From NCBI GenBank assembly GCA_900708905.1, contig CAADRB010000040.1, positions 1 to 64,000 on the forward strand: DNA of 64,000 nt, given 5' to 3'. Every line of letters begins with the position of its first letter. Position 1 is the stretch's first letter. The notes under the pieces were generated by a model that saw nothing but the letters and a program-made list of their open reading frames with translations, was not told the DNA's origin and made no database searches. The position numbers and the translations under genes are program-made. This document shows positions 1 through 45,700 of this stretch, in pieces. Origin of the DNA: Hymenolepis diminuta (lineage: Eukaryota; Platyhelminthes; Cestoda; Cyclophyllidea; Hymenolepididae).

Positions 1-3000
1 AAGGGGAGTCTGAAGAATTTGTACATCACGGGTTCGGTTGCGGGGTTATTCTGAATGTGTACAGTCACATTAATATAAGTATGGATACGTAACAGCTATT
101 CTACTTCTCCTGGTTGGCTGGAGTGTCAAAGTCTACGAAGATGAAGTATACTGTGATTAATTTTATTTTAAACTAATAGAAAAAATTTCCTCTTCTCATG
201 TTTAGGAACAGTCAGGATAAAAGAATGTAAGAACTACTGTGATAAAACGTCAGTAATTGATTAATTTTATATTAATTATTCTAAGTAAGTCTGATTTAAT
301 GCTGACAAACTATCGCAATATTGTCATTCCAATGTTTGTATTTTGCCAGAATTATACAGTTAACATCATACTGTTCTAAGTTAACAGACTAGAAGTCCCA
401 GTAATAACCTCTGTAATGTGGCAATTTAACACAGAAGCCAAGAACCAACAGCAGAACACAAGGCACGTTGTGGTAAACACGTGTACTAAAGGAACTCAAT
501 CTCAATCGGTATCGAATTAAACAAATAGGCATAATTACAAAATGTCTTTCATCAGTGAGAGAATTAAGAAGGAAATTGTAATTTTATTTATAGAAGTATT
601 GAAAGTGGAGAAAATAATTTTCATTTATTCTAGCATACACAAATTGAAATTCGTATTTACCTGATCTCTCTCTTAACATATTATAAGACCATGAAAAGCC
701 AATGCGGTTTAATAATGCCTTTATTTTTGGAGAATCATCGCGTTTTGAAAAGAAATCTTATGTTTTATGATGAAAGCAGCTTAAGAGACATCAAAATATT
801 TTAAAGTTACCCAATTAAATTTCTTCTCTCTTAATAATAATTTACTGGTAGTGTAAAGCAATATTGTCCGTGAATAGAAGAATGATGTAATTTTATGTCA
901 GTAGAATTGTAGCTGAAATGTACAATTTTGGGGTATAAGCGTGTAATGTGTTACACAAATAATTAACATGATTTTGGTAGTTGTACACGTTTGTGCTTCT
1001 CTAGAGTGACTGAGTTTAGACAGTAATTTTGGAAACCACTAATACCCCTTCATGTCTGTCAAACTCTTCAGGCGACTCAAGCCGCCACCCTCCTTTATAG
1101 CTTCTTACTAATCTTTACAACCCCTTTTTAAAAACTTCAACAGTTTTTGTCAACCCTATCTATAAATATTTGTGAGCAATCTTACCCCTATCCCTCACCT
1201 CACTTCTTATCTCAAACTTCTGCCGCCCAACTTCTAGCTACCTTCTTTCCATCTGCAGTTTTTCCTATCAGCTTCTTTCTCCAGTAACTCTCCTACCTTC
1301 TGCTCTTGTAGTCCTCTTGCTTTGTCTCTGCTTACCACTCCTCATCAAACTTATATACTTAACAAGCCTTTCCATCCATCCAACTCTTCATTTGGTGACA
1401 ATAGTTTTATCGTTGAAACGGATTTTTAAAATTCTGTGTTCTTTCAACTTCGAAAAAATTATCATTAAAGTGTTTGTAAAAGAGAATAAGCCGCAATACA
1501 TTTGAATTCCAGTCGATTAGAAAGTAACAGAGTTGGCGAAGAAATCATATATTTAAAATAAAATACTAAAAGAAACATTTAAATACTGAAACAATATAGA
1601 TGAATTTGTAGGATGACTCTCAATATATTTCCAGAATTACTCTTTATTCGCATTCTCTATGGCAACGCCTCGGTTTTTCGTCCATGCAGCCGCAGTGGTG
1701 TCTTTTATGCCCCTATGACGCAAAACCTCTATCTGTCTTGTCTAAACGCGACCACCGATTCTCCTTTTCTATAGCAGCCTCGTTTCACTTACAAGTACGT
1801 CTGCACTCATGTTCTCACGTGGCCTTACCCAAGTGACTCATATAAAACTGTCTTTGTTTTTCCACTCGAAACATAACGTGTGTCAGTTACCGACTTCTAC
1901 GTTTCCCTCTCACCTCCTCTGTTCTTCAGCCCTCTCCACCCTCCTTCTGTAATATCAATCCTTGTTGTGGCTTCTTCTTTCATACATTTCGGTCTATTCA
2001 ACTCATGGTGTTCAGCTCCACAGTTGTTGTTAGCTCTTACTCAAACAACTACGAAGTGGTGACCGTCGCTGCTGTTAGTGATTACCTTAACTCCCAACAA
2101 ATTGTTTGATATTTTAATTGAGTATTTAAGTGTAGTATAAGTAACACTTGTAGGTTAAGGGACTGAATGACAATGAAACGAGTGTTACTATTAACACAGC
2201 TTCGTAAATATTACCTATGAGCTCATCAAGGGGTAATATTTTAACATTACATTAATATTAACATTTTAACATATTGACAAGTTGGAATATCATTTGAATA
2301 ATCTTCATTTTACAAAATCTAACCTTATACTTGAGTACATCTCACCTAATAATTTCGAAAGACGATAATCGATTACCTGAATTTATATCACTTTATTTAT
2401 CGATCTATCAAAGCGTAAATCATTAAATAATTTTAAACAGAATCACTTAACAACTAATCGCAAAGATGTCTATATAAAGGTTCTATTTAATGAGGTAAAT
2501 ATCTTATGTTGTCGTAAGAGAGCGACAGAAATATCTTCCATGTTAGTAGTTACATACCTCTGGAAGGACTTTCGAAAGTTCTTTTGCTGGTAAATTGGCA
2601 AAGCATCAGCAGATCAAGAGATGGATTAAACTAATGCGTTTTTTATGAGAAAAGTTAAATCTGAAGCAATTTACTTCCACATGACCTCGAATTTATTATG
2701 GTTAATTAGATTCCCTCAATATTTTCTTTATTTCACCTCTCATTACTGAAAGTATTTTGAAATTCCTTTATGTTACTCATAACTAAAATTTTTTCCAATT
2801 TCTACATCATTACCATTCACTGGTTTAGCCCTCTGTATCTTATAAATCAGAATTTCCTTTCCTGTTTTTTGGATAACATTCATTTAGGGTATTTTGGTTA
2901 AAGAATAGGCAATAGATTTGATATATTTTAATATTTTGGTTGATCTCATACGTGTTATCGTCTGATTGCTCAGACTCCAAATTGAAGAAAAAGAAGTATT

Positions 3001-6000
3001 ACGCAGACACATGAGACATCATAAGACGTCGGCTTATTGTAAGACTGAATATAAGTCCATCATATTCTAAGAGTTCTAGATCATTCTGATCTCAATGATA
3101 TTTTTTTGGTTTCATAAATAATTGATATTTATTCAAACAATTTACTTTTTATCAGGTGGACATTTTTTGGAGAATAATCATGCGAATGTATTTAACCTGA
3201 AGTGATACAGATCTGAGTCAATCAAGGGTCTAAACAAAATAAGTTACTCCATATTCTTATGATACCGCATTTCATAAAATACGGAGTAGATGAAGACCGA
3301 TGAGACAGATTAATGGAAAATTCACTGAAAATAGAAAGGTTTCTGTAATCTACAAGTCCGATATCCTAGTTTTCCAAGATAGAAACGGAAGGGAACGCAC
3401 GCACAAGTCAGTTAGACACTGAACCGTTTTAATTATGACCTTGAAGAATATAAACGGGCTAAAACCATGAATATGAGGAAATATAACACATTTAAAAAAT
3501 CGAAATATTATCTTACAAAGTGGAAATATTTAATAAAATATGTTTTCACATTATATAATACTTCCGCCTTGAAAGAGACTAATGTGAAGATGCATAATAA
3601 TTTAATTCCCATTTTTTGATCTATAAATTCATTCAACTCCTAATAGTCTGTGGTAAATTTAAAATACATATAACTATGAAATTAGTAGAAGTAACTATCT
3701 GGAAATATCATGATTAAATTACTACTTTAAAATTTATGGGTGTCCAGTTTGAGTGAATTCTAGTTACCTCTATTGAGTTTGAGAGGTCATTGACTATCAT
3801 CATCTAATTTCTCTTGGTTATTAGAAGATACAAATAAATCCAAAATAGCTGACCTACTACGGAATTAAATCATCCTATCAACAAGTTCTGAATTTCGTAG
3901 GCATAACCCTATCCATGAACCTGTAATCAAGTCATTAACCTTGGACATTCGGAAATTTGACAGTGAATCATAAATCTTATGAAACTACGGACAGCTCAGT
4001 GCTTACAAAAATTCGTGACGCCTTGTCTTTACTACCCACTTCTTCTTGTTTTTATTGGGATCCTTTCCGACTGCCCATACTCATATGCTTTTCCACTGCT
4101 AAAATTTGCAAAAGTTTATTGCATTGTCATGGACAAAGCAATTCTTTAGTCACAAACATATTTTCAGTCATTCCGTACAAACAGTTTTCTCTCACCTTCT
4201 AAACTTTAATTCAGAATTGAAATTTCCATTTTATTCCAAATGGCGATTCAATATATAATTTACTCTACGTTCAACTCCTGTTCTTCTGATTTGAGTCTTC
4301 TGTTGTTTACTTTCAGCCTTTAGGCAGACCATTAATTTTGTAAAGGTAAATCTTCAAGTCTAAATTTATTAGTCTTCTAACGGTGGCTCTGCTTATTGAA
4401 TATAGTGCTACTTGTTAAATAAAAGGAGACTTCAATTAAAACTATAAAATTAAGCTATAAAATAAATGAGTTTTCTGATAGATCAGGTTTATTATTATTC
4501 CCCATCGTACATACGTGATTCACTAATTGGTCCAGGAGTCCGAACCATTTACTGTCTGTGGCATAATTTGTCGGTCTCTATCTGATCCAAGTCTTTGAAG
4601 TCTTTCTCTTTCCAAACTCTTGCTGTCGCTCTTGTCAATATCATTTAATGTAGATTCTGCTCTTACTTCACTTTTAATAAATTCAATGCTAAACATGATG
4701 CAGTTGGATGTTGTAAATAGATCATCCACTATGAACTTCAATCTCGACATTATTCTAATTTCTTCTAATGGATTTCTTTGTGGAACAACTCAAATGATCG
4801 CACTCTGTAAGGGTAGGTTTCATCATTTAATGCCGTAGCTACGATTAATTTTCCCAACCGTGTAGTACGTTTAAGTCCTACCTCTCATTCATATTTTCCT
4901 TCAGACGATATTAATTTGTGGTCACTTTCTTCTAATTTTTCGATGTTGTGCATAGTAACTTCTTTCTGCAGCTCTAATCTTGGCTTCCTCGAACAAGAGA
5001 GGCAGTTACACATTGTTAATTGTAGACAATGACCCACTTCAATGAATAATTTTGATGGTGTGTGAGGTGATGTCAAAAAATTAACATTTGCTGCATTCTT
5101 TTGATCACGTCAATATATTCAACATGGGAGAAAATGCTCATACGCAGATCCTTAAATCCAAACTTTATTTTTGGGAAATATTTAAATTAAGAGCTTTTCC
5201 ATAAGCATAACCTATATTTTTTCAATTCCGTTTCAATGGGCAATCCGTATTAGTAAATAAGCTTCAGTTGAAGGAAACAGACACATTGAAGGGACTACAA
5301 ATAGAAATGCCAACCACACTTGCGCCAGTAAAGCATTGGTTAACGTGCTCGTCTACAAAGTTCAGTTTCGATATCATCAGGACATACTGGAATGGCCATT
5401 CACGTTGGTTAAGTTTGGCTTGGGTAATTCTAAAATTCGGAATCGGAATTTGAATCCATCGACCAACAAGTCCTGAACAAAGTGGACAGAGACTTCTTCA
5501 TGAACCAGAGAATCAATTCATATTATTTAAATATTAGAACATTACAGTGTAAACTATACTTCTTGTGAGAATACGGTCAAATTAGTACCACTTTATTTCA
5601 AGTAAGGTAAAACTTTTATTTCCCTTTGATCCACTTCCCCACCTTCCACACATTATTGGATTTGTTTGCTTTTCCTTTCATTCAGATGCCTTCTCATAAA
5701 TAAGAATTGTAATTTTTTGTTTTGCCATGGCAATAACAATTTATTCCATTTAATTCTGGTTCCCTAGTTTAATCGATCCCTTTCAATCTTGCAGTGTATT
5801 TCTCGACTTCACTTAGAAATACACCTAGTGAAGAAAATTATTTGACCGATTAACTTTGCTGTCCCATTATTCTTTCTCTGGATTTGTAAATCATAAAGCT
5901 TAAAAACAAGTCAGATAATTTGTAAATCATGAAAGTGTTCATCAATTCAAAAGTGTATCTATTTTGGGCACGTCATAGTTCTATGGCAGGAATTAAAACC

Positions 6001-24700: not shown

Positions 24701-27700
24701 GACATTAAAACAACTTGGTGGCAAGCAGGTATGGACAGAGGCATGCTTGGATGATTCATTCAAGACACAAAATCACTAATAAGCGCTCTCAAATGAAAAC
24801 TATGGATTAGTAAGCATGCTGAAGGAACCTATTAGCAATAGAAGCAATGAAGCTGCGTTTTAGCGGTGACAAAAATAGAAAAAATCTATGATCCATTTTT
24901 TAGGATAGGGAGGGCAAAGCAAAAGTTTGAAGTACGGAAACAAATTACAAGTAGCAAAGGTAAATTAAATTAGAAAATTGAAAGAAAACAAAGCTCTGAG
25001 AGGAAGGGAAGAGATAAATACCTCTGATCGAAGTGGAGTGATTGTAGGAGCTAGAACAAGACTAAGCGGTCGAGATAGACGTCTGAGCATGGGAGAAGCC
25101 TCCTCTATAATAGGGGAGAGATCACCTGGCCTAGGCCGTTCTAACACTGATTGAGAGTACCGAATAGGTGAGGTTACGCTGGGCTGATCTTCAGAGGAAT
25201 CTAGCTGACTACACGATGATAAACGCTCTGTATCTTCAGGAGAGGATTCGTGCTGTGAGTCCTCTGGATTGGGTAAGGGAGAACGCGAAGCAGAGGCTGA
25301 AGAACTTCTAATAAAACCACGAGGATATGCCTCCTCTGATGAATAGATATCACCACCCTGCGCATAATTCTGACCTGATAACATTTCAGGTGATCTGCAT
25401 TTAATTGGGTCAGGGATACTGAAGCTTCTGAAGATTGAAGGTCGAGGGGGTGAGATCGATTCACTTAAACTGGACTTGTTTAGCAATTCGCCTGTGCCTA
25501 ATCCTCCTTCGGCACCTTTTCCAGAAATCAAATCTTCCGAAACTTTCGAAAACGTCGACAAATGAAGTCCAAGATCTTCTAATTCTTTTTTAGAAACCTT
25601 GGTTGCAAACGATATCGGGGCATTTTCATATTCAATACCGTCTTCGATAATTGATTTATTGTCTTTATCAACAGCTAACGGATTTAAATCCATATCTTTA
25701 GACACATCTCTGACAGTTTTACCGAGCTTTCTATAATCACTTTCAGAAACTTCCTCCTTATCTCGTTTTATTGTTCTGACCCTTGCATCTAATTCGGATT
25801 TGCTCGCAAGTTCATCACTGCAGATTTGATCAGCTAATCTGAATCTTTCACCAGTTCTAGGTAAATCATTGTTTAAAGATTTCTCTTTTGTGACATCTAA
25901 TCCCTCCTTGGCAACCAAACTTGTATTATCCACAGCGCCAGCTTCAAACTCGGTTTCTGATTTTCGAACGATTTTTGATGATGGTAGTACACTAGTTGAA
26001 GATATGTCTCCGAGTCCGTCACCATATATTTTATCAACAGCTCTAAATAGTTCTGGCGTTCTCAAATAGTTATCCTTTTGAAGTGAACTTGAAACACTAT
26101 CATCTGCTACTTTGACATCAGCCTGAGATTGAATATCATAACTAATTTCTGATCTCTCAGCCGGAAGTTGTCTTCCATCAATTCTCTTTCCACTTGCAAG
26201 TTCTTCACTGCAAATACGACCAACTAGTTCAACCTTTTCATCTACCTTTTCAGTTATTTCTTTTTCGTTGGCAACACTTTGACTCAAGTTGCCTTCAGGG
26301 GAAAAGCCACTTATTTCTGGTATTTTGATCATGCCACAAGACTGACTTTCTCCAACAGCAGACTTATTAGCAAACTCCTCGCTGCTAATGTGACCAGACA
26401 GTCTGAAGCTTTCGCATGCATTAGCAGAGATTTTTACATCAACGGAAACTTTGCTATCAGCCTCATCTTGAACTTTAAAATCTCCTTTTGGTCTTTCAAC
26501 TCCCTGCTTTATATTGCATTTCTTCACATCGGAGAGTTCGTTGCCAATATGATCAGAGAGTTTGAGCGTTTCAGCTGCATCTGCAAAGCTTGTTGTGTCA
26601 TAAGTAACTACTGTTCCAGAGTCGACCTGACGATCGCATTCTTTTTCTGGTACTTCGACCATACCGCTTGATTTAATTTCACCAAATTCGGGCCTATTTG
26701 CAAATTCATCGCTGTAGATTTGACCAGATAGTGCAAGATTTTCACCTGCCTCAGCAGAATTTTTAGCATCTTTCGTAACTTTGCTTTCAGACTGATCATT
26801 TTCCTCCTTTCTATTTGTGAGGCACACTTCAGGCAATAGTTTTTCAGAATAATCATAAATTCTGTCCGCTGAATCGGTAATCTTCCTTGAGACTGCATTA
26901 AACTTGTTACTGAATTCATCATAGTATATTCGACCGGTCATATCACGGAGAATATTAACAGACTTTTCGATCTCAGTCGGTAATTCAACGCCATCATCAA
27001 CCTGTTGATGGTACATATTCGGAGCATTATTATTGTTCGATGGCTCCACACCAATTCCCTCACCAGCTTCGAATTCTTCTGAGTTCTCTGACAATTCGCA
27101 AGTTTTTCTAACACCAGACTCTTCAGGGAAGATTGACGACGAATGAAGAGCTGACTGGCCTGGAAAATTTTCCTCAGTGGATTTAACAAACTCTACATCC
27201 AGGGGAGATTCTGAAAATTCATGTCCACCTTTTTCGATATTTCCTTGTTCATATTCAGGTTCGTTATCACCTTTAAAACCCGCTTTCGAATAATTAGCAA
27301 ATTCTTCTCTGCAGATCTTACCTGCTAGTACGAAGTTCTCGTTTACCCCATCTTCTGGTTTATTTTGTTTGCCCTTATCTGAACCACTTTCGTCCCTTCC
27401 GTTAGCCCCTGTTCCTTCAAAAGATGATTGATAAACTGGTTTTATATTTTTTCCGATTTCTTTCTCAATCTCCTCTTTTTCAATAACATTAAGGGTTTCA
27501 GACAATAGCTTTTCAGAACTTTTATTCAATAGTGCTATATCACCATAACCAGGAGATTTAGTTGAATCTGCTTTGAATATATTCGGGAGTTCTTCGCTAC
27601 AGGACAGACCAGTAACTCTCTGATATAAATCGCTCGGACTTTCAATAAATTGTTCCTGACCTGAGAGAAATCTCTTCTTTGCTGAGAGTTGTGATCCCAC

Positions 27701-30700
27701 TGGACTTTCTGCTGCGTGATCCTTATCAGCTACTCTACGAGCTTCATCAACATTTTCTGAGAATTCCGCTTTAGGTTCTCCTTCAACATTTTCATAACCG
27801 CTAGCAGGTGGTGCAATGCCATTTTTGTCATTAAGTCCATCATTATTGGAACCAACAGCCCTATTACTCGGTGCTTTCTTGCTTAATCCTAGAAGATTAG
27901 AATCAGTGATATTCAAAGAATCCATTTGATCTAAAGTAGACTCCATATCTCTTGGCTGTGTCAACGATTTGTTCGCGAATTCATCTCTACAAGGTTCACT
28001 AACTTTGCCTTTAAGAATATCACCAATATTTGCTACTCCGTCTATGATTTTATTGCTGTCCTTCTCATTCACTGTAGATGGAATATTATCCAAACCACTC
28101 AATGAGCCTTTTTCTTTGAGAACGCTGAAAGGTAAGTTGCTTTCATCGAGAGGATCGAATTTTGAAAGTATGTGTAATTTATCATATTCATCATATATGT
28201 CTTGTGGTACAACTACTTCACTCTCGACTTGGTGTTGTGAAGATTTACCGGCAAGTCTTTTCAATTTCTTAGCTGCCTCACTTAAAGATCTTGGAGTCTC
28301 ACCAAAAACTACTTCGAATCTTGCCTCATCAATTGCGCAATTCTCCTTTGTTGAAATGCTAGCAAAATCGACAGGTTCAGAAGCTGTCTCAAATTTGAAT
28401 CCGAGTTCTTCGGTATAAGGCAGACCAGATACACCTCTGAGCATGTCTCTAGGCTCTCCAAAAACTGTGAATTTATCATCTTCCTGCTCTCCTAAGACCG
28501 TAAACTCACTCCCAGATCTTTCTGCTCCAACAAATTCTCCCTTAATTTCTCCAACGTCAGTCTTTGTCAGGTCGCCTTTATCTTTCTCTTCACCAGTTTC
28601 AGGTCGTAAAATATCGGAGTTACTCACTAGGTTTTCACTAGTATGTTCAATAATCACTTCATCTAATGGGTCGTTGTACATTTTGTCATAATCAGATTTT
28701 GTGACGTTCAGGAGATCCATCTCATCTACGAATTCACTTTCGTTAATGTCTCTGCAAGGATCCGTTGGCTGTGAGAATTCATTATTTGCATACCCTTCTT
28801 TACAACGTTTACCAGAATCGTGAGATTCAGAGGAGGCAGATGCGAACTTGTTTGCAAACTCTTCTGTACAAGACACACCGGTTAAGTCCCAGAGACCAGG
28901 ACTTAATGATTCCGCAGTCATAATTTCATCATCGGATTTTCTTGGGAATTCGTCTACGATATTAGATCCTTCAATTCCATTTCTATCAGCCTTCCCGTTA
29001 TGGTTGTATTTAACCTTTTCTTTGTTTTCTTCATTCTCTGCGTCTCTCGTAGGTTCAGAGGCGTTTTCACTTGATTGATCTTTACTTAATTCAGGAGAAA
29101 TAGACTCAACGACATGCAGAGTGTCCATTTGATCTCTAAGATCTTTCCGAGACCTCTTTCGATTGTTATCTTTAGAACTCTCTACCTTTCGCATAGATTT
29201 TTCTCCTGCTACCTTTTTTTTGCTAAGTTTATCAGCCATACATGTAGAAATATCGACATTACCTGATTTGGCGGAAGAGCTTACATCGTTATCAACATCT
29301 CCTTCGTCATTAGGTATCACTGATTTCTTTTCGGCCCCAAATGATTTTTCTTCATTATTTTTTCCACCCTGTGACTTTTGAATTTCTTCTGGAGATCCGA
29401 TTTCAGAGACTACGTTCACTTTACCATATCCATCATTAAGCTCTTTTGAATTTGAGGCTTCTTTACTGTAAGTTATCATATGCAGTGTGGTTTCTTTGTT
29501 TACGGGCTGAACTTGAAAAGACCTGTTGGGAGGTTTTATCAAATTTTCTTCAGCACCAGCTTTGGATGAAAGCCCAGATCTATTTTTCATGCTTAATCCA
29601 TCTGTGACTGGAAGATATTTGCCCTCATGCTCTTCAGAATCAGAGTGGTCGAGAGTGTCGTTTATGATGCCTGAATAAGTAGTAAATACATTAGAATCAT
29701 CAAGATTTCTAGGTTTTCTATCCGTTTCTTCGATTTCGCCACTGCGAAGAAAATCTTTTGATGCACTGACAACCTCAGATTCATGCACTAGATTTCGTGC
29801 GTGCATATTAGCCACGTCAGGAGCGGCTGATCCCAATACTGTCGTGCTTGATACAATATCTGCACATGTTTGGTCAGATAGACCCTCCCCAATTTCGACG
29901 GCAGATTCAAATGGCCTCACATTTTCTTCCCTGTTCCGGTATTCTGAGGGACGCTTAAGGGTATCCTCAGTACCTCTAGCATCGTGAGATTCACCACTAG
30001 GGCTTTTCAGCTTATATTCGTCAGTGGCCTTTATTTCATGCGATTTATCAGTCAAGACATTGTAGAAATGGCCTCTCTTTTCAGATGTATCCTCGTCTAG
30101 ATTATGATCGTATTTGCTGTAATGCAACCCTTGTTCCAACTTATCCACGCGTGCAAGATCTCCACTTCTGGAACAACCTGAAAGTTCTCCTGAACCATGG
30201 AACAGATTAGATTCTTCTCCCGGTAAGCCTTGAGATAGATCATTGGCCTCTTCTTTTCTTTTATTGTCTTCGAATCTTGAATCATCTGCAGTGGTTTGAT
30301 CCGCAGTTTGTTCATGGAGAACGAAATTTGTTATTCCACCGCTTACTTCCCCCACTTTATCAGACCCTTCGAAAGAGGATAGTTCGGCAATATATCCAGG
30401 TTGTTGATGAGAAGATTGAGCTTCTGATAACAAGCCATTACCAACCTTATTAGTTATCCTCGAGGTTGAGTTTGCAGATAAACCTTCGTTTTCTACCTGT
30501 TGAGTAGATCTTCTTACCAAATCATCAACAAATTCTATTTCATTATCTTCAGTAGCTGTTTGATCTCTTATTACAGGTGTATCCTCTATCGAAATAAAGC
30601 CATATCTACCGGTTTGCAACTCATGTTCCAGATAAACCACATGCGCAGGATCTTCCCTACTGGAATGACCAGGAAGTATTCCTTGATCATAAATCAGGTC

Positions 30701-33700
30701 AGATTCATCTGCCAAGAGAAATTGAGACAGATTAGCATCCACTCCCTTTCCTTTACCATCACCGAAACCTGGCACTTCCGCAGTAGACTTGGTCGCAGAT
30801 TCTTGAGGGAAAATGCAACCAGACATCTTATACAGATCTTCTTCCTTTTGATTATGCCTTTCGAGTGCTGATAATTCAGCATCTTTAACTGCAGCGTGCT
30901 CATTTTGTTCGGAACTAGGTTTCAGAGCCAAGTCACTCAGCTTATCAGGCTTTTCAGATGTTCTTGGCATTAAAATGATAGAGGAGTCTTCATCACCTGT
31001 TTGCTGAGTGAATCTTCTCGATTTATTGTCAATATCTGATCCGTTTTCCATTTCTGAGAGATTTTCAAGCTCATCTTCTTCGGTGGTTTTCCCCTTTATT
31101 TCCAATGCATCTTCAATTAGATTTTCACCATATTTGCCACTCCTTAAATCTTGTCCCAGTTTAACCCTGTGAGCAAATTCCTCGGTACAAGCATGGCCAG
31201 CAATATCAGGTATTCTTCTTCCAGATACCACATTAGATTCATCTCCTGGTAGACCATGTGGCAGAGTTTTACCGACACCTTCAAATTCTGACACTTTCTT
31301 GGTAAATTCGTTCGAAATATCTTCGAAAGCAATTTGATCTGCCATTCTAGATGGTTCTTTATCCTTTAGATCACCAGGTATAGATTTAGCATGTTCGTCA
31401 CGTTGTTGATCTTTCCCAGGAGAATCAGTTAACACGTTACTGGGTTTGACAAACTCTTCAAGATTTCTGGGCTTTGGAGCAGCAGAGGAAGCTGTATTAT
31501 CTGGAGAAGGAGCAAATACCATCACCGATTCTTCGGCAGTAGCTGGCCTCAGTGTATTTATTCGACTTAAATTCTCTATTGCAGGTCTTTCTGGACTAAT
31601 TTCCGAATCTTCTGCGACGTGTACATTGGATTTTTCTGCTGTTTCATCGTCGTCATGCTCATTATTTTGCAAATCTTGGCCTTTCATTCCAGTAAAAGAA
31701 TCATTATCTGGTTCTCTGATGTCAGCACATTTGGCGATTTCCTCTCCTGTTATTTTACCACTTTCAAGTATAGCAACTGAACTTGGAGACTTCGAACCAA
31801 ATTCGCTTTTACTTGCGAGCTCATTCAGAAAATCAAGATCGTCGATTTCTCCTGTGATATCACTTGTATCACCTTTATTTTTACAGAATCCTTCGTGCTC
31901 ATTTAGGTCATGACCGGATGTTCCGGACTTCAATATTGATGCATCATCTTCAGATCCACCCAAATCGTATTTGACGTCACCCATATCTGCTTTATTTGAT
32001 CTGCTTGTGAGTGCATCAACACAAGATATTCCAGCGATTTCATCAGTAATTGGCTTATTAGAGTCCGATACATTGTGTGACTTGAGCACCGGGAAATCGA
32101 CTTCGTCCAACCTTTCTTCCTCTGCGGGAAAATTCATTGCAACGAACTCGCCGCTTACAAGCTCATCTTGACAAGTTCGACCACCAACTTCATAATTATC
32201 AACATGTTCCTGTCCTCTATAGTCTTCTGTATCTCTCTCTTTACCGATGATGCTTGAATCCGCCACTTGAGTAACTTGTGATCTTAATGCATCAGTACTG
32301 CTTCCAGCACCACTACTACCATCACGATCTGCGCATGAAATTCCAGCTATTTTGTTTGAGGAAGATCCAGCTTCCTTCGATTTCGATGACCATGCAGGTT
32401 CTTTATTAGGGATTGTATCATCAGAGTCTTTCTGGAAAGGCATAACGCCAACGCCGGAGAATTTCACTTCACTGGCTTTCTCAAACTCTTGGGAACAAGT
32501 GTGACCAAGTCGTCCACTCAAATCCTCACCAGAATTGACCGGCTTCTTATCAAAATCGGAGCTTTCACTTTCAAAGTCTTCATGACTAGCTATTCTGTGA
32601 TTTCCCGCATAAGCTCCATCTGGACTAGACTTTATCGAAACTCTCGGGACATCAAAATTTCTATCAAATTCATCGGTACAAGTTGTTCTCACGTCTGCAT
32701 CTTCAAGCGTTTCTCCCCTTGCTTTATCCTCACCTTCCTCAAAATCAGAGTTGTTTACGTACAGCGTTTCTTCACTGCTTGAATATTCCAATTTCGGCAA
32801 ACCTGCTCTATCACTAACAGTTTTACCTCGCCTATCAGCATCACTTGATACAAATAAATCTTCCATACAATCAATAGCAGAAAAGTATTCAGTATCAGAG
32901 GAGGGTTCAATTGATGTTTCTCTACTTGCACTAATATCCTCCCTTGCTGAGAAGTAGGGATCATTATCTATTCGTGGTAGCAATCGGATGGCTGGAAGAC
33001 TTGGCGACTTTGGTACTGACAGCTTTATGAGAGATTTTGAAAGATAGGGGTTAATTTCATTTAAGTCTCTATCGGTTTCGTTTAAGCTTTCAGTTGCTTG
33101 TTGAATAAGAGAGATGGAAATTTCCTGCCTTTTTTTTCCAAAATCACTGTCATCAGATGCACGCTGAATAAGTAAATTTGAAGTTTCGTCATTTCCGTGT
33201 TTATTTTTTTTTGGGTCGCCAACAATTGGTGCTTCATTAGAAACAATCTTAGTAGATAATTCTGGTTCAGAAATTCCTGATTTCTTTGTAGTCCCCTCTA
33301 GTGGTCTAGTATCTGAGGCGATGGGACAGGATTGTCTATCTGTTTCTGGAACGAAAGCTTCAGTATACTCAGGTAGTTCTGCAGTTCTAAAGTCATCAAT
33401 TACAACAGATTTCGACATTTTTGATGAAACTTCTCCATGTTCTTGTTGACTTTTTCCTGAATCATCAACAATAGATGCTTCATCTATAACACTTTCAGCA
33501 AATGTTTCTAATTCACAAATATCCGATTTCCCTTTAGCCTCTTCTAATGATATAGCACCAATAACTGCAGAGTAAGGTTTATTATCAGTATCTGGAACAA
33601 AGGTTTCAGTATCCTTAGGTTGTTCCGAAATTTTCAAATCATCAATTTCACCAGATTTTGCCGTAATCGTTAAAGCTTCTCCATGTTCATGTTTATTTCT

Positions 33701-36700
33701 TCTTAAAACATCAACAAAAGATGTTTCATCTGGGAAAATTTTAGCTGACTTTTCTAATTCAGAAACATCCGATTTCTCTGCATTTCTCTCTAATGATATG
33801 GCAGCAAAATATCTATCTTTCTCAGAAACAAAAGTTTCAGTATAATCAGATTGACATATAACCATAGAATTATACATATCTACCAATTTCGATGCTGCCA
33901 TGTCATCAAGAGCGTTTGAATCATTGTTAGAAGACTCAGACGATTTAGATTCACAATATGAGGTGTTAATAAGAAATATTTCTTGACTTGCGACATCAAG
34001 CTTATCGGAACTTTCACTGCAAGAAACAACCAAGTCAAAGTTCACCCTTTCAAGCTCTGATTTGCAACTTTCTTGTCTCTCAACACCTACCTTATCAAAA
34101 CCTTCGCTAAGTTTAGCAGTCGAGTCATGGCTAGTTCCCTCAGCTTCCGATTTGCAACTTTCTGCTTTGGATTCATCCTCTTCTAATGTCGTTTGATGCG
34201 ATGACTCATCTTCTCCATGCACGAAACTGCTTGATTCCTGATGCTTTGCTGCCGATTCAGGGGTTTTTGGAATGCCCTCAATAAATTCGGGCTGCTCCGC
34301 AATCTTTGAATCCTTCAATCCAGCAGATTCCAATGCCACTATATCATCAGTTGTGATTGCTCCATCGTCAGGAAGTTCTGCCGATCTCGATTCAGTTTGC
34401 GAGTCATCAAGCAGAAACTTTTCTTGTCTCTCAACACCTACCTTATCAAAACCTTCGCTAAGTTTAGCAGTCGAGTCATGGCTAGTTCCCTCAGCTTCCG
34501 ATTTGCAACTTTCTGCTTTGGATTCATCCTCTGCCAGTTTTTGTAGACGCGATGGCTCCATTCTTTCCCGCAATAGATTTCCTGATTTTTGATTCTTTTT
34601 ATTTGAATTAACACTATTCTCTCTTGACAACCCAGATACAAATTTCGATATTGCCAATTTTTCATCTGATTCATCGGCAGTTTCCTGTTTTTGTTCATGC
34701 ATGGACATTTTAGCAATATTCGATTCATGCTTGCTTAATACGCCTTCTGAAGGAAATACTTCGCTAGCAATATCGTCTTGAGATTTTGGCTTCAAAGTTT
34801 CCGAGATTTTAGATTCATTCTTCTCTGTCCCAATTTCTTCATCGGAATGAGAACAAACTTCTAATAACTCGCTTGATAAATCGATTGAAATGTGTTTACC
34901 GGCTACAGATTCTCCCGTAGGTCCCATTTCATAAGATGTCAAACTTAAGGCTTCATTCTTATCTTCAGACCGAATTTCCTCTGAAATATATGAGTCTTTG
35001 GTGGGTTTACGATGTATCGTAGTCTCAGGTTTGTCACTTATCAGGGCTTCTTGATGTGATGGAGATTCATTTAAATGGTCATTTTCCTCAGGATGTGGAA
35101 TGAATTCATTGTTTTTCAAGTCGGATTTCGTTTGTTCAATTAGGACGATATCAGCAAATTCTACTAATTCAGCGCATTTATCAACTTTAAAACATTCTGA
35201 GCGATCTGAGATCTTTGTCGTTCCATTTCCCTTGCTTGAGGTTACATGGTCCTCATTTGATTCGTCAGTCAAGACAGACATTTGGCGTGCCTTTTCTGAT
35301 TCTGCAATGTCAGACTTCTCTTCATTATTTTGCATAGTTGCAGGCAATTCTACCTTAACTCCATCAAGGCTTTCAGTAATAATTGAATCGGGAAGAACTG
35401 GTACAGCATCATTCGTGCTAGACTTTAAAATTACTTGACGTAACGGATCTAATGACTCAGGGTCATAATCATATTGCTTTAAAACATCATGCTTTTCTCC
35501 GATTATTCCATTGTCAGGAATTCCGGAATCTACTCTTACCCTCTCCGACGAACCAAGCTCCTCACCTATGGTGGCAAATTTGGGTGGATGAAGTGATTTT
35601 TCGACGCTGTCGTTGTCGGCACATACTCTTGGAAAAGTCTGTTCGGATGATCGGAATTCATCGGGAATATCTACTGACCTTAAGCCTTCGTTAAGTACAT
35701 GTAGACCCTTCTTAATATCAGAGTAGTGTTGGTTCTCTAACAATTTTTCCGGCGGCCCAGTTGATATGGAAGCCCTGTCGTAATCATCTTGAGGAGCTGT
35801 TGGAAAGTCCACACATTTTGATGAATCAGGCTTCAAATCATATTCACTTTTTTCAGAAGTATTAGCATCAGATGCTGGGATTCCTTTTTCGAAACTTTCT
35901 GTATCTAAAGATGGTATAGATGAGGATATTTGAGCTACTGTTGGTTTAACCCTGATATCCAAATCGGTTGGATAAAGGAGTGCAATTTGATCATAATTTT
36001 CAAGACCGTTTGTTGCATATTCGTCCTTGGGTAATGAAACAATGTCTGCTCCAGATTTATTGGCAGTCAAAGCTAGTGAGTCATTATTCAATGATTCCAG
36101 AGACTTATCTTTATCGCTAGGATGGTCATAACAACTTTCAAATCCCCATGGCTCAGATATCAATATCATCTGCGATGATTTAGCATTTGCATTAATGTCT
36201 GCAGTTGGAACAGACTCCAGTGATTCTTGCTTGAGTGATTCATCATGAGAAATTACATTTAGAGAAACGGAGTTACATTCATCTGAAACTGTTTGTAACA
36301 GGTTTTTATCTGAGCTTCGTTTATCCGACACTACATCAGCCTCTGAAATTGACACTTTATAAGATAGAACTGATTTTCTAGCATTTGATTCTGTGATATC
36401 TGGTGAGCGAATTGAAGAATCAGGAAAGTAAGCTGGGTTCATTTCATTCTTGCCTGCACCTTGAGAATCGTCTAAGGAAGTTGTTGACTTAGGTGATCCA
36501 AAGTCTTGATGAACAGCACTCGAGTCACCAGCTACGCCAGAATGGATTGAATCATTCCCATCTTCTTTCTCTTTCTCGGATGATTTTCTTTCTGATATAC
36601 CAAATTTAGCTAGCTCTCTAGAAGAAATGAATCTGCTTTTTCCTTGAATACCTTCTATAGGATATTCATTCATGGGAGATTCAATATCTAATCGTGGGTC

Positions 36701-39700
36701 AATAATACTAACTATCCCATGGTCAAGCTCAGAGGATTCTCCTTTGTGCACCTTGAAAGTTTCATCCATATCGGATTGTAGATCTGTCACTTCATGTGAT
36801 TGAGATTCCAGATATCTCTTGTCTGTTACATCAGATCTTTCTTCTGAGGATTGAGGATTTTTACTTGAAAGCTCATTGTTTAGCATAAGAGATTCATGGT
36901 CTTTATGTGGCTTAGAATAGATACCAATTTCATGGGCATCACTTAACGATTTCGCATTCAACGCTTCTTGAACGTTTTCTAAATCAGTATCTCCAGTATC
37001 TGATTGAGTTTCAAAGTTTCTGACTCTGAAGATGCCTGTTTCGTTGATATCGGAATCTATCGAATTTTCGGATTTCATCTTACAAAACGATATTTCTTCA
37101 ACATTTGGTTTTTTCAAGCTTTTGTCTATTTCTTGAGGATATTCTACTTGGTATGTGATTAAATCGTCCTCTTGGGGTGTGATTTGTTCTTTATTAAGAA
37201 CGGGCTTACCTGGATGTTCAGATGGGTCTAAAGCAGAAATTTCAGCTCCCTCTTTGGATTCTAACCCGTCCTTAGCCTGCATTGTCTCTGAAGGATATGC
37301 AATCATCTGAGACTCGTGACTGACTCTTTCATCTAAGATAATTGAACCAGACATCATCTCATCAGCAGAGATATCAGCAGGAGATCTCGTTTCTTGACCT
37401 TGCTTTAAACAAGATTGAACTTCATTCTTTTCTGCTAGGCATCTAGGAATTTTCGCATCTTCTGTGTCTGATGATTTATAATGACCCAAGAAATCTCGAT
37501 CCCTTTCTGATTTATCAATAGGCCCTCTCGTCAGAGATTGTGAACTTCGCATATCGGATGAGTATTCTTTCCCAGTTTCTTGATAAGCACCTCCTTTTGT
37601 CTGAGAATTACCCTCACTTTCTTCTGAATACCCAGTCATTGAAACCTTCAATTCGTCGGTCGAATAGGGTTTTATTTTGGCATCCGCCAACTGTATAAGA
37701 TTACTATAGTCTCTAGGCTCACCATGGACTTCTGGAGGAGAAAATTCAGAGACCTGTCCCGACTTTGTCTCCAAAATTTCATATTTTGGAGATGAATAAT
37801 CCATTGGTTTACCTTCCCGATCTGATGTTCCAGTGTCATATTCCTCCTGGTAAGATAACTCATTTGAATCTGATCTCTCTCGAGCACCAATTTCTTCAGG
37901 ACTAGCTCCGTACGGAATGTCTTCGCCTTCTTTTGAAGACGATATGTTAGAATGGTAAGGACTCTCCGCCAACTGAGTTATGATTTTATCTACATTTTCA
38001 TCATCATGAATTCCAGTCTTCTCCATCGAGAAAGATTCCAGGAGTTTGGACTCATCGTCTAAGCATGGATTTAAGTAGGCTACAATAGCGTGCACATCGT
38101 CTTTTCTTTTGGATGAGTTCCTTGGTTTGTCAGTTTGATTTTCGATTTCTCTCTTATTTTCATCTCGTTTCAGTTTATCACTTTTCAGAGGTTCTTTTAC
38201 TTTCGGCTTACAAATTTCATCCTCATTCTGCTTTGGTGGCATTGAAGCCCCTGAAAACCCTATAGGGTAGGGCTTCATTTCATCATTTGTGTCAAGAACG
38301 TCTTGACCTGCAAATCGGGGACTAGAGAAAGATATTTGAATAGACGATGGAAGACGATCATCGGCTTCACCAGGAAAATTCAACGCTGAATTACTGTCAT
38401 CAGGTAGCATGGATTTCTTAGGAGTTTCCCTCGATAGAGATTTAAGTCCTTTTAAAGCAATTTTATCAGATTCGATTTCATATCCATGAACAACCTCATC
38501 CACAGGAATAATAGATTTTTCAGATTCGAGGTCTGCATGCAAGTCAGATGGTGAAACATTTAGTTGATCGTCTTCAGATTGAATATTCTCATCAGAAATT
38601 ATCTTAGCTTGTTCAGAAATCGCTTTATCCTGAAGCCTATCAGAAAATGCAATCACGCCATGCTTTCCCGTTAAGAATTCCGGAATTAATTGCGCTTCAT
38701 TCTGTCTAGAATCTAATATACTTTTCTTATCGTCAACACTTCCTGTAAGGATGTGTGATCCAGAATCTTCTATAGGGAAAGTTGATGCTAATTTCGATTC
38801 CTCAATTGATCGTTCGAATACATCATCATCTATAGATTCTGTTGTTTCATCTGCTTGGAACTCCCCTGGAACATAGTTTCTTTGGTTGGATTCCAAGTCA
38901 CTTCTTTGTTCTGAGGAAGAAATCATTTCATAGTCTTCAATATAGGGTTCCTTATCTAGTGTTACTCCAAGCTCTACCATTTCTTCAGTGGTATCATCTG
39001 AGTTAGCACTCTCTTCATGTCCAGGAAATCTGCATTCAGGTTCAATATGTTTAGTTTCAACTGGATTTGTGAGTGATATTATCGATGTTTTCGAATTTGT
39101 AAACAATTGAGGTTTAGCTTCACTAGTTTTGCCGCTTTCACCTCTTGTCTTTGAAAGATTCTTCTCTGCTTCAAACAATTCAGGCGATTGTGGAACCTTT
39201 TCAAGATGAGTGAATTCATAATCAAGATCTCCGAAATCAGTAGTGTCCATGCCATATAGTGAGGCGTCGTCAGATCCTAGAGACTGAATTACATTCAATT
39301 CTTCATCGGTCGGACCGAAAATAGGAGCAGAATCGGCAGCTTCTGCACTACTGATTGGCCAGACCTTCTCGATAGGTGACGTTGCAGAATGTTCACGTGG
39401 AGATACCACTATGTAATCATCAATCTTTGGAGAATGTTTCGGGGTAAGTATGTCCTTGTCCAAATCTGGGCGTGGTATAGCTACTCTTGTTCTTTCAATA
39501 TTAACCGCCTGTATTTCTGGTAGCTGTACAGGGGTGTGTTCTGGTCTTTCATTAAGTGAATAATAAATCTCAGTATCAGTTGCCGAATCATTAGTATCTC
39601 TAAGAACTGTAATATCTGAAAAGCTAGTCGGAATTGAAGACTCAGGTTCAGAACTCATCTGGTTACCTTGTAATGCAAATGACTCTTTAATCAATGAGCC

Positions 39701-42700
39701 TGATTGAATGCCACTTCCAGACGATAAGTAAGGACCATTTTCTCTAGGTTTTGGTATTGATTTTTCTCGTTCATTTTCTAATTGGCCGATTTGCTTACAA
39801 TCTTTCCCGGATTCGCCTTTTGATGGCAAAACTCTACCAGCTAAATCACCTCTAAGAACAGTTTCCGGTGTATAGCCATCACCTATTGACTCAACAACCA
39901 TAGTTCGATTAATTTCAAACGGGAACTAAAGATTCGCATAGCGTTATATAATTGAGTATAAATTGTTAATAAACATAAGATCACAAAGCAAGCATAATAT
40001 ATAAACGAAGAAAGGAGATAGAAAGAGAGTAAGCGAGCACATACGTATAACACAAACAAAATACCATGACGATGGTGGGTTATTCAAGTAAGGTAAAAAA
40101 GGCAAAAAGAACGATCATTAGTTTAAAGACATTACTATCTATTTATAAAAATGAATTCTATGATATATTCAATAAGGACTTACCGAATCTCCTTGTGATT
40201 CCGGTATATCGTTTTCAGCAGTAAGATCACCACTTTGAGTTCCCTGTTTATCGAGCGAAAGTCTGCGTTTCTCCATGTCTAATTTTCCGGATTCGGTAGT
40301 CCTAGATTTTGCTTGGTTTGGATCCTCCAAAGTGCCGCCTCCACTTTGTTGAGAAGATTTTGAACCACGTTCATCGAAAGGATGTGATTCAGGGGTTACT
40401 GAATCAAAGAAAGTATTGGGACTTCGAAATTGTGGTTGCTGTTCTTCTGAGACATCCACTGTTATTGGTCCCAGTGATTCTCCCGTTTCTTTTTTCAGTC
40501 TTGTTTTAAGACTATTTTCATCGACTACCATAGATTCGTGTTGCACATCTGAAGTTCCACCAATAGATTTTAGTTTTTCCTCGATGGCATTATAAGCCAT
40601 TACTCCAGCAATCAATGGCGCCCCCAATGTTGCTGCTAAATTACTACCAGCACCAGCTAATATTGTTTTAATACCAGAACCCTTTGCGCCGACGGGCGAC
40701 GTTTGTTCTGCAGAAGTGGTCAATTGATCTACATCGCCCCTCATTGATATATCGACATCAATATCAGGGACTAAATATCTTCCTTGTACTGCCGAAGATT
40801 CAACGCCTTTGTCACCTTCACCATGCCCAAGCGTATAAGGAGCTCCTTTCTCGGAATTCAAACCACTCAAACCTTCTTCGTTTGCAATCAAGGACCTCGG
40901 ACTCATTTCATTTTGATCTTGAAGTGCCAACTGGTAGGATCCTTTAATTTCTTCCATCGAGAGAGTTTCTCCAGATTTTGTCAGTTCAGCAGCGGATTTA
41001 TTTTTATTACCCTGATCAACTACTGATTTATCAGCAAAAACGCCTTCGAAATCCACATTTGGATACGCAGCTGAATCTCTTCTAGGTGATGTTACAACAT
41101 CTTTAATCGGTTTTTCGTCGATTATTTCTTTTAAAGGCGTTCTCTCCCTAGGATACTCTTCGGGAGTCTGTTTCTTTCTTTCCAATTCTTGATCCGAAGG
41201 GACTGATTTCGACAATGATCGTTCGCTGTCAGCAGAAGTAATAGAACTATTTTTACCATCCATGCTAACTGAACCGGTAGGGCATGCGTTTGATTCATGG
41301 GCATCGAAAAGTTGTTTGTCAGCACTAGACCACTGTGCTTCTTCAGCCGAACCTCTCCTAGCGGCTGTAATAATATCTTCAATTGGTCTTTGATTGGGTA
41401 CTTCCTTTGACAGTACTTCCTCAGGTGGAGATTCACCAGAGTTATCTCTATCTTCTTCGAACTTACGATCCAAAGGGGAATATTTTGACAAAAATTTACT
41501 CTTTTCTGACTTTTCTGTATTATTCTGTGGAAGATTGGAGTCCATGACAACTGGCTCTTTTCCGTAACAGCTGGTCTGCGTCAAATCTGTATCGAGGTGT
41601 TTAATCCTACTATCGTTCGCCTTCTCAAAATCCGACATTGGGGCGTACACCAATTGTTGATTATGTCCAAATTTACTCCTTTCATCATAATCCTTTACTG
41701 GTAATGTATCCCTTTCGATACTAACTTCCGACTTATTCCCAACAGATGATTGGGAAAATCGAACACGTCTTTCATTGACATCAGGAAGTTCCGACTTATC
41801 AACATCTATTTGCTCTTCATTTTCAGCTTTATATGGCGGTTGAGATATCCAGTCATCAACAAGGGGGATTTGAGGTGGTTTGGAAGGTTTTCCAACGGTC
41901 TCCATCGTTATAGATCTTGCTGTATCATCGGCATTCACTCGTTCTGAAGAAAAACTATGCCTTTCTCTGACACCATCCTCACCGAAACCTGATGATTGAA
42001 TGTTTTCATGCAAATGTCCTCTGGCAGATCCAGTAGGTTTGGGTCTTGCAACATCATCAACATCCATCCTACCTGAAGGGCGATCAATTTCGTATGAAGA
42101 CTTATTTTGAATGTTATCCGCGCTATGATTTGATTGTTGAATGTACTCACCCGAACTTGCCTGTTTATGTAGACTTGATGACTTGCCACTTTGAATTTTA
42201 TCCTTAATCGACTGATAAGCCATATTTCCGCCTAAAGCTGCTGCCCCCAGTGCAACAGCAAGACCTGTCCCGACTTTTGATGCAGCATCGAGCAAATCAG
42301 ATTTCAGTTTGCCTGAATCGCGATCTTTTTCATGAGATCTACTTGATAAATCCTTTCCCAATTCAACAGGAAACTCTGCTTCTGATAACCCCTTCTCTTC
42401 TTTTACTTCACGTTTATTTGGAGTTATTCCTGCACTATCACGCTCTCCAGGAAGTTCTGATATTCCGGACGACGTTGCTAAGCTAGAATCTCCCACAGGG
42501 GAATGAAGATTGGGTCGGTTCACGTCATCCAGTAGTGACAAATGCACCAAATAAGGTACATTTATAGGGTCTCCGTTATATAGGATTGAATTCAGAGTTG
42601 ATATTTTATTAGTAGCTGGATCTCTGATCATCGTTTTCTCGCCATCAATTAGACCAGCCTCGATCGCTTCTTTTATCAGTAGACGGTGTCCAGTGAAAGG

Positions 42701-45700
42701 ATCGTTTACGAAACCAATTTGAGGATCCAACCAACCAAGTTGGACGGCTGTTTTTAAGTCTACTGGTAAACTGACTGTGGCAAATTGCTTAGAGTCAACA
42801 GAAGATGGAACCGTTATATGAAGAACTGAGCGGTTTCGATTATCTTCGTCGACAAGATCCTCTTGTAGTTCAACACACATGGATCGATCAAACAGCAGTT
42901 CGGTGATAACATTTTCTGGATTAGTCGGTAGCAAAATATCCACTGGAATATACTCCTGTGTGGTTCTGAAGTGTATCAATGTTCTGTGTCGACACAGGGG
43001 TCCATCAGTGAATGCATTTAGAATGGATACATATGCTTGTGTTTGTGGATTGAGGACAGTTCTGCTCCGTGGTTTAATGAGATGCAGAGTTTGAGCTGAA
43101 GCGTATGGTATTCTGCGTCCGATACTCAATTGTCTGCGTCCAAACGATTCCACTTCTTCTGAAGACAGTAGTGTTGCCATCGGCCATTCAATCCACGTCT
43201 CCATAGAAATTGTTCCATCATTTAGGTAACTCAGCAGGCTATGATAATGACCAGTGCGTTCATCTTTAATCAGGGAACTTTCACCATCTACTATCTCCAA
43301 TTCAATGGCCTCTTGAAGAGTTATTTTCTGATTAGTAGTGGTCAATACCATTCCTGTAGATGGATCAAACCTTCCAAATTGAGCAATTCTAGCCAGGCTT
43401 AACCTCTCACCTTGAAGTTTTTCTCCACAAATCTTCTCTTCAATTTTCTTTTTCTTTGGTTTGAGAATGATTTTCGTGGCGCTGAGTTTCTTGTCTCCTT
43501 TGCTGGATTTAGGGGCGATCACAGACTGAAGACGAGAATAATCATCAGGTGATAGACTCTCACTAACTTCCCCATCTGCTGGGCTCGCATTCCTGATCAT
43601 TAAAGTCTTCAGTAATTCATTTCTCCAACTCGCTTCTGATATATGGCTGTCACGATTTGCAATCGTATTCGCCGCGTCCAAAATAGTCGCTAGAGTATAA
43701 TGTTGGTTTCCAGATACACCTGAATCTGTTCCATTACCGATACGAACAACGATTGAGTTAGGATCTAAGAACCTCTGTTCCACAGCTTCAAAGAGATTCA
43801 CTTGAGAGATGGCTCCAGTCGAACTTCTCAGTCGACCAGTTCGAGGATCTACCCAACCACGTCTTAGTGCAGTAGCCAGACTCAATGTTTGAGGAGAGTC
43901 AAGTTGACGACGAGATGTTTCGAGTGTAGGGAGATTTTGTGGAACAAGACGTCGAACTAGGGGTAGTTTTATTGCTGAAATCGCAGTACCATCGGTCATT
44001 GAAACTGGTGTAAGATTGCCCATTAAGTGTAGATCTAGAGGCAACCTTTTCTTTGGTCGTTGTGCAGAAATCTAAAAAAGTAAAGATAGTTTCCTTAGAT
44101 TGCTTTCATTAATATCCGATTTTTGGCATTTAAATGGAATTGGTAGATAAACTCGGTTTAGGTGAAATTCAGTTATAACTGATGGCATAAGGTGTTATTC
44201 ACTTTATTGTGCTCCTTCTTGTATTTTTATGTACTTCCTATTAGGTGGTTTATTTTAATTTTAGAAAGGTAGGAGCATGTTACGAAATACACAAAATTAA
44301 ACTATTATTATCTAAGTGAGACAACATATTGCGACCGTTTACAGTAGTTCAGTGGCGGCATTAATGTTTTCAGGAGGACAATAGGTAACTACAGTCGAAA
44401 AGACTTTTCTGCCCTGTGGGGATTCTCAATATCAGCACATCATCGTTCTGATCCAAATAAACAATTTGAGATCATTTGTCTTCTCAACCATTGGAAGAAA
44501 AAATAGACTGATCGACGCTTATTGATTAAATAATATCGGCCATTAAGAACAGAACATCGTAAACGAAAGCATTTGCTACAATTCGGAGAACGAATCACGA
44601 ATTTTGAATTTTGGAACATGAACTGCCCATTCAGTGAATATTATATAACTCGGGTCCAAACCTCAAATGAAGTGAGACTCTTTGATATCTTGATGTCGCT
44701 CCCCGTATACCTTTGATCCCCTCTCATTTATCATCTATTAGACTTACCGTTATTCGATATTAGTTGCTTCCCACAATTGAAAATTGGGAAATTTTTTGTA
44801 TTACTAACAATAATCATTAATCAAAGTGATTTGTCTTTATTTTAAACTACATAAAACACATGAGTAAGCTAAAAGCTTCCCTGAAAGTTCTGATTGATCA
44901 ATTGACGATGTATAGCTAATGTTTGATTATACTGTTTAAGTGTGACACAATTTCTATATGTTCAGGGATGAGGTCAAGCAAAATTATCTTGTGAAATCTT
45001 CTTTTATCCTCCCATTTACAGTTTAACCAAAAATGCACGATTGAAGTGATTTATATTCTAATTTGCTTGTCCATCTAATCACTCATCTGATAACGCTTAT
45101 TGATTTGCACCCTTCTCTTTAGTCTGTTGGTCAAACATCAACGGACCATTCACTTCTAACTACGTTTCACCCCCATATTCCATCCGAGTTTCTCGACACT
45201 GTAAGAAAACTTCGGATAAAGACCTGCTTGTATCACTTTCATTGATATAAATGAATTACGGGGGGTTAAATTAATTTACTTATTGATTCAACTATACCTA
45301 TTGAGTGGCATCGAGCGATGTCATGCCACTAGAGCGTCATACAAATTTCTCTCAACAAACTCATTATAGAATTTCAATTCTAACACTACATTTAAGGATC
45401 TCCCCAAGTTCCAATCTTGTCTCAATTTATCATATTCTCAAATTGTCAATTATGAAGCAATTTTCTTCAAATCCAAGAAATAATTACTCATAAGGTTTTA
45501 ATTCAGTAACTTATACCGGTTTAATAAGAGCAAATGCTTCATAGTTCCCAAAGAACAATAGTTTTCCTAATTAAGGCGGAAATACGAAGAGAAATTTTGC
45601 TACCTCACCTTAACCTTAGATACTTCATCTTCATCCTTCTGGTTTATTATATCTTCCTGTTCTTTAAAAGTGACATTCAACGGACACACCGCAAAGTCAA

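Follow-up and report, generated by a model that had tools for sequence, protein, structure and literature searches.

The first 64,000 nucleotides of contig CAADRB010000040.1 of the cyclophyllidean tapeworm Hymenolepis diminuta (the window), a species whose published assembly is given as 177 Mb (PMC6890685), contain a spectraplakin gene on the minus strand. Its giant exon carries 13 strong and nine weaker copies of a short core motif, arrayed through sequence that is disordered by composition. The protein encoded in the window is 100% identical to the deposited H. diminuta protein P0003 over the region searched, and the Echinococcus multilocularis spectraplakin P0005 matches the window collinearly from residue 499 to residue 7028 (tblastn). 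Residues 1-498 of P0005 gave no tblastn match in the 64-kb window, and P0005 itself carries PF00307, for the calponin-homology pair of a spectraplakin N-terminus. In Pfam, P0003 carries PF00435, PF13499, and PF02187, which we take to be the spectrin repeat, EF-hand, and GAS2 families. Together with the plakin repeats of the preceding exon, the predicted product has the combination of domains by which a spectraplakin is recognized.

The giant exon lies in an open frame of 4986 residues (24965-39925, minus strand), is separated from the preceding exon by an intron of 258 bases, and has a 3' junction (E/V) that matches P0003. Because both junctions are phase 0, the exon could be skipped without a frameshift, and such skipping is possible. 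Serine and glutamate make up one quarter of its residues, and 222 of 244 windows fall on the disordered side of the charge-hydropathy line.

The core occupies a 16-residue window with the approximate consensus [LVI]-[STA]-G-x-x-[CY]-x-[DE]-E-[FL]-A-[NS]-[KR], the informative columns being G, C/Y, D/E, E, F/L, A, N/S, and K/R. A de novo search, to which the motif was not supplied, recovered it as the top-scoring set of 16 windows, each 16 residues long, within exon residues 2401-4760, with a left-one-out total of 311.7 compared with 63-93 in 12 shuffles that kept local composition. A scoring matrix was built from 13 of the 16 windows, the three low scorers (2693, 2860, and 3348) being dropped. 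Over the same residues, the matrix detects 22 windows of at least 4 bits, against 1.26 in shuffles, and 13 of at least 12 bits, against 0.017; exon residues 1-2400 hold no window of at least 4 bits, where 1.06 are expected. The 13 strong copies are scored here by a matrix that contains them, and left out one at a time they score 8.9-33.5 bits (mean 23.2). In a count made without the matrix, one 13-residue core window has nine neighbours at a BLOSUM62 score of at least 28, and no window in 20 shuffles has more than four. Nine of the 27 cysteines of residues 2401-4760 fall in the 13 cores (25793-32191, minus strand), which account for 9% of the length.

The initial annotation had described a motif repeated about 20 times between 25790 and 32700, and both the number and the span hold: shuffled controls reach neither the observed counts nor the score, and the copies run from 32698, the start of the first weak one, to 25793, the end of the last strong one. 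The spacing is looser than the 60-150 residues it gave, as the distance between strong copies ranges from 50 to 773 residues (median 129.5). Its description of the motif as undescribed is consistent with the searches made. Pfam gives no match for any of the 13 copies or for the window protein P0001, and PDB searches give no significant match to the core; no description of the motif was found among the matches listed in the literature on tapeworm spectraplakins and plakin giant exons, at the level of titles and abstract openings. Coordinates of the copies and of the surrounding features are collected in Table 1.

Table 1. Positions of the core copies, the array they form, and the exons that surround them
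Feature	Position in window	Strand	Exon-frame residue	Remarks
Core-copy array	25793..32698	-	2410-4711	
Copy 1	32144..32191	-	2579	
Copy 2	31994..32041	-	2629	
Copy 3	31160..31207	-	2907	
Copy 4	28841..28888	-	3680	
Copy 5	28388..28435	-	3831	
Copy 6	27962..28009	-	3973	
Copy 7	27572..27619	-	4103	
Copy 8	27284..27331	-	4199	
Copy 9	26897..26944	-	4328	
Copy 10	26687..26734	-	4398	
Copy 11	26357..26404	-	4508	
Copy 12	26183..26230	-	4566	
Copy 13	25793..25840	-	4696	
Best weak copy	32468..32515	-	2471	11.6 bits
Other eight weak copies		-	2410, 2525, 2693, 2860, 3083, 3650, 3702, 4628	matrix scan
Fused copy	26519..26560	-	4455	14 residues; below matrix threshold; resembles two P0004 copies joined by an in-register 42-residue deletion
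C-terminal cluster	25793..26944	-		seven copies (4455 fused, 4628 weak) and six intervening units of 53-70 residues
Giant exon	25022..39925	-		4968 codons; phase 0 at both ends; acceptor TTTAG/TTC, donor GAG/GTATTT; splicing read from sequence
Preceding open frame or exon with plakin repeats	40184..44071	-		ends TCG/GTAAGT, phase 0; Pfam Plectin E 2.8e-11 (P0002); upper end 44071 is the open reading frame limit only

At the C-terminal end of the array the repeated element is longer than the core. The six units of the C-terminal cluster are alike along their full length (15 pairs, mean 27.7 versus 20.7 ± 1.1; none of 400 shuffles). A match in register is also present in the 25 residues upstream of seven cores (-3.1 versus -15.5 ± 2.1; none of 400). 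The initial annotation saw conserved islands in a disordered chain, which is half right: because the whole unit is repeated in this cluster, the islands are better described as remnants of a decaying tandem repeat. The C-terminal cluster shows such a repeat directly, and outside that cluster the core alone is recognizable. With weak copies included, nine of 21 adjacent gaps measure 48-72 residues compared with 3.6 expected (P 0.005, for a range picked post hoc), and gaps of 50-70 residues concentrate at both ends of the array. Extrapolated from the C-terminal end, the whole array would descend from one unit. Where two copies share a residue, they use the same codon in 206 of 411 pairs, against 184.5 expected from codon usage (significance not computed). 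Since this agreement barely exceeds the expectation, the similarity between copies sits at the protein level; the copies look old in DNA, with the core apparently kept as protein.

The protein P0004 of a close relative aligns over 4842 residues at 82% identity and carries the array as well, with 21 copies of at least 13 bits compared with 13 in the window. Insertions of 762, 551, 74, and 42 residues, together with some smaller ones, set P0004 apart from the window, which in turn has stretches of 77 and 30 residues absent from P0004. The 42-residue difference reaches from a core to its neighbour, keeping the register, and what remains in the window is the 14-residue fused copy, the outcome expected of recombination between copies; this reading comes from two sequences compared by eye, with the direction of change inferred. 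The 551 extra residues, at about 30070 (minus strand; residue 3286), may reflect either a deletion in the lineage or a collapse in the assembly.

Judged by motif score, the character of the core is retained between the two proteins beyond what spacer rates would give. The 13 aligned P0004 copies have a motif score of 21.0, compared with 15.8 ± 1.55 in simulations at spacer rates, with one of 2000 simulations as extreme (P 0.0005); another simulation gave two of 1500 (P 0.0013). Including eight of the window's nine weak copies (20 of 21 alignable) gave none of 2000. The reciprocal test from P0004 to the window also gave none of 2000 (20 of 21 P0004 copies, 13 alignable); it is biased, its copies having been found with the window matrix, and is not relied on. 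We read the core as probably under weak to moderate purifying selection inside a fast-changing exon. In the intron tail at 24838-25021 (minus strand), translated and compared by eye with one frame change allowed, about six of 61 residues differ from P0004. The corresponding figure for the exon is about 17% (binomial P 0.17), so that the intron tail differs no more than the exon and the spacers change at a near-neutral pace.

Two side observations concern the exon itself. P0003 starts at a methionine within the giant exon (31687, minus strand; residue 2747), beside the 762 extra residues of P0004, and its gene model is probably truncated. The half of the exon that lacks the motif contains two identical stretches of 36 residues (34421-34528 and 34070-34177, minus strand), with starts 117 residues apart; because P0004 lacks the exact stretch, the pair may be a recent local duplication.

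Among more distant proteins the motif is scarce. The scan covered 148 fetched proteins besides P0001, P0003, and P0004, taking the best window per protein and displaying the twelve best, and only P0005 of Echinococcus exceeded 15 bits. Its single copy of at least 13 bits, GIAGRPCMEELPFKCD (22.4 bits), sits shortly upstream of an exon tail resembling that of the window; it rests on one deposited gene model, possibly with skipped exon sequence. The Mesocestoides protein P0007 has a 12.1-bit candidate at residue 56, ahead of the spectrin part. Five insect proteins (P0139, P0143, P0138, P0131, and P0137) score 9.2-14.9 bits at look-alike stretches (VLAGK...), tentatively taken as one chance site. 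The Schistosoma turkestanicum protein has no window of at least 13 bits; within its first 500 residues it goes from plakin-like sequence to sequence of another kind without a giant exon. No other full-length tapeworm spectraplakin appeared among the matches listed in the protein searches, in one case the best 120 of 711, and H. microstoma and H. nana lie outside this coverage. The comparison with orthologues that the initial annotation proposed as a check is thus divided: P0004 has the array, Echinococcus a single copy, and none of the other spectraplakins fetched has a window above 15 bits. The simplest history is that the site predates the split between Echinococcus and Hymenolepis and was multiplied in Hymenolepis, the evidence for the single copy being thin.

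A plakin repeat folds into a module of about 38 residues, made of a hairpin and two helices, and the initial annotation suggested that the motif might be a collapsed version of it. Such a version would bind intermediate filaments. The core does resemble the plakin (plectin) repeat PF00681 as a module that recurs in a spectraplakin gene between its plakin part and its spectrin repeats, and the array exon is directly downstream of true plakin repeats. It differs in measuring 13-16 residues, in lying in disordered sequence, and in lacking profile similarity: its plakin profile score is 4.6, compared with a median of 5.2 over 100 permutations of the columns and 46.8 for a plakin positive control, and the plakin profile, searched at E values up to 100, matches neither P0001 nor P0004. 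Models of the core give helix or disorder only, at low confidence. A paper on spectraplakin origins states that plakin repeats are present in flatworm spectraplakins (PMC9145010), and in what it states this fits the preceding exon, not the core motif. Descent from a plakin repeat is accordingly very improbable.

A degenerate half EF-hand, comprising the second half of the loop and the start of the exit helix and perhaps derived from the EF-hands at the C-terminus of the protein, is somewhat less remote and still unlikely. The core shares the G-x-I-x-x-x-E-[FL] register of the EF-hand loop, with G6 in 11 of the 13 copies, I8 in six, E12 in 12, and F/L at 13 in all. The EF-hand profile scores 10.19 against the core, a value reached by two of 300 column permutations, while the reversed motif scores 5.98; the EF-hand of the Hydatigera orthologue P0006 reaches 10.7 bits with the core matrix. 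Against this, the comparison was chosen after the motif had been seen, the HH probability is 2.5%, and none of the 13 copies has any Pfam match. Loop positions 1, 3, and 5 of an EF-hand are calcium-ligand sites, and ligand-type residues (D/N/S) are few in the core (four, three, three, and one of 13 copies at positions 1, 3, 5, and 9), with Cys/Tyr at position 9 in 12 of 13. A 14-residue stretch of the DNA fragmentation factor 40 chain (PDB 1ibx_A) that contains GRSCQE also aligns with the core, but at a non-significant E of 0.69. The nearest general class is that of multivalent short linear motif arrays in disordered scaffolds. Like these, the core is short and conserved, the spacers are disordered, and copy number varies; unlike them, the core lies inside a longer, decaying tandem unit, and its partner is putative. 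As short linear motifs are, the core is short and lies in sequence that is disordered by composition.

That the core is a multivalent docking peptide, amplified in this lineage within a disordered and frame-neutral exon, has in our judgement about an even chance of being right. Docking was also the proposal of the initial annotation, and it remains the best functional guess given the disorder and the retention of motif score. Several results weigh against it. Raw identity to P0004 is not clearly higher in cores (86.8%) than in spacers (83.1%; P 0.13), conservative changes are no more frequent in cores (nine of 24) than in spacers (113 of 366; P 0.50), and copy 4 differs at four of 16 residues in P0004, its left-out score falling from 33.5 to 16.8. 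The units of the N-terminal cluster are not mutually alike (P 0.61), and their similarity to C-terminal units is marginal (P 0.04). Over 20 copies, the flanks have no clear similarity beyond the core (before, P 0.09; after, P 0.15), and the strong copies alone have no period (P 0.14). A core G followed by S/T-D/E-E-F/L-A-N-K is a plausible helix start, and a 40-residue model based on the 13 copies is predicted as one helix (mean predicted local distance difference test, pLDDT, 69.6); helical models of short peptides are weak evidence. In a 351-residue stretch with four strong copies, mean pLDDT is 39 and falls below 50 in 293 of 351 residues, and the predicted helices cover the last copy, not all copies.

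Much of this would suit a neutral decaying tandem repeat, in which slippage or unequal exchange multiplied a unit in an unconstrained exon and the core is simply the part that has not yet drifted, with no docking function. Such a history would produce the small excess of core over spacer identity, the lack of conservative bias in core substitutions, a rate of change in the exon similar to that in the adjoining intron read-through, the different copy numbers of close relatives, and a difference that runs from copy to copy in register. It sits poorly with codons that are near random while residues are kept, which calls for constraint at the protein level, with the retention of motif score, and with the survival of the core outside the C-terminal cluster, where other parts of the unit do not survive. 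Neutral decay is a possible explanation, though on balance we doubt it.

Under the docking reading, head-to-tail multiplication of a unit of about 55-70 residues would have taken place in the lineage of Hymenolepis, within the giant disordered exon. Its copies would then have drifted until most of each unit was unrecognizable except in the C-terminal cluster, with the 13-16-residue core held at the protein level. The core would most likely be a short peptide for docking, forming or extending a helix when bound, so that a single molecule, between its actin-binding and microtubule-binding ends, would gather many copies of one putative partner. More speculatively, and with only tentative confidence on our part, one ancestral site that is still single in Echinococcus may have expanded to about twenty in a tapeworm lineage, giving a multivalent display of a novel helical docking peptide and a lineage-specific cytoskeletal hub whose valency varies between close relatives.

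If the core docks, the spectraplakin of this tapeworm would offer a single partner about twenty points of recruitment per molecule, and the series from one copy in Echinococcus to many in Hymenolepis would illustrate how an array grows by tandem duplication and then wears down. The array also serves as a caution that repeat exons in flatworm spectraplakins need not encode plakin repeats. As the peptide is defined, any partner is directly searchable by pull-down.

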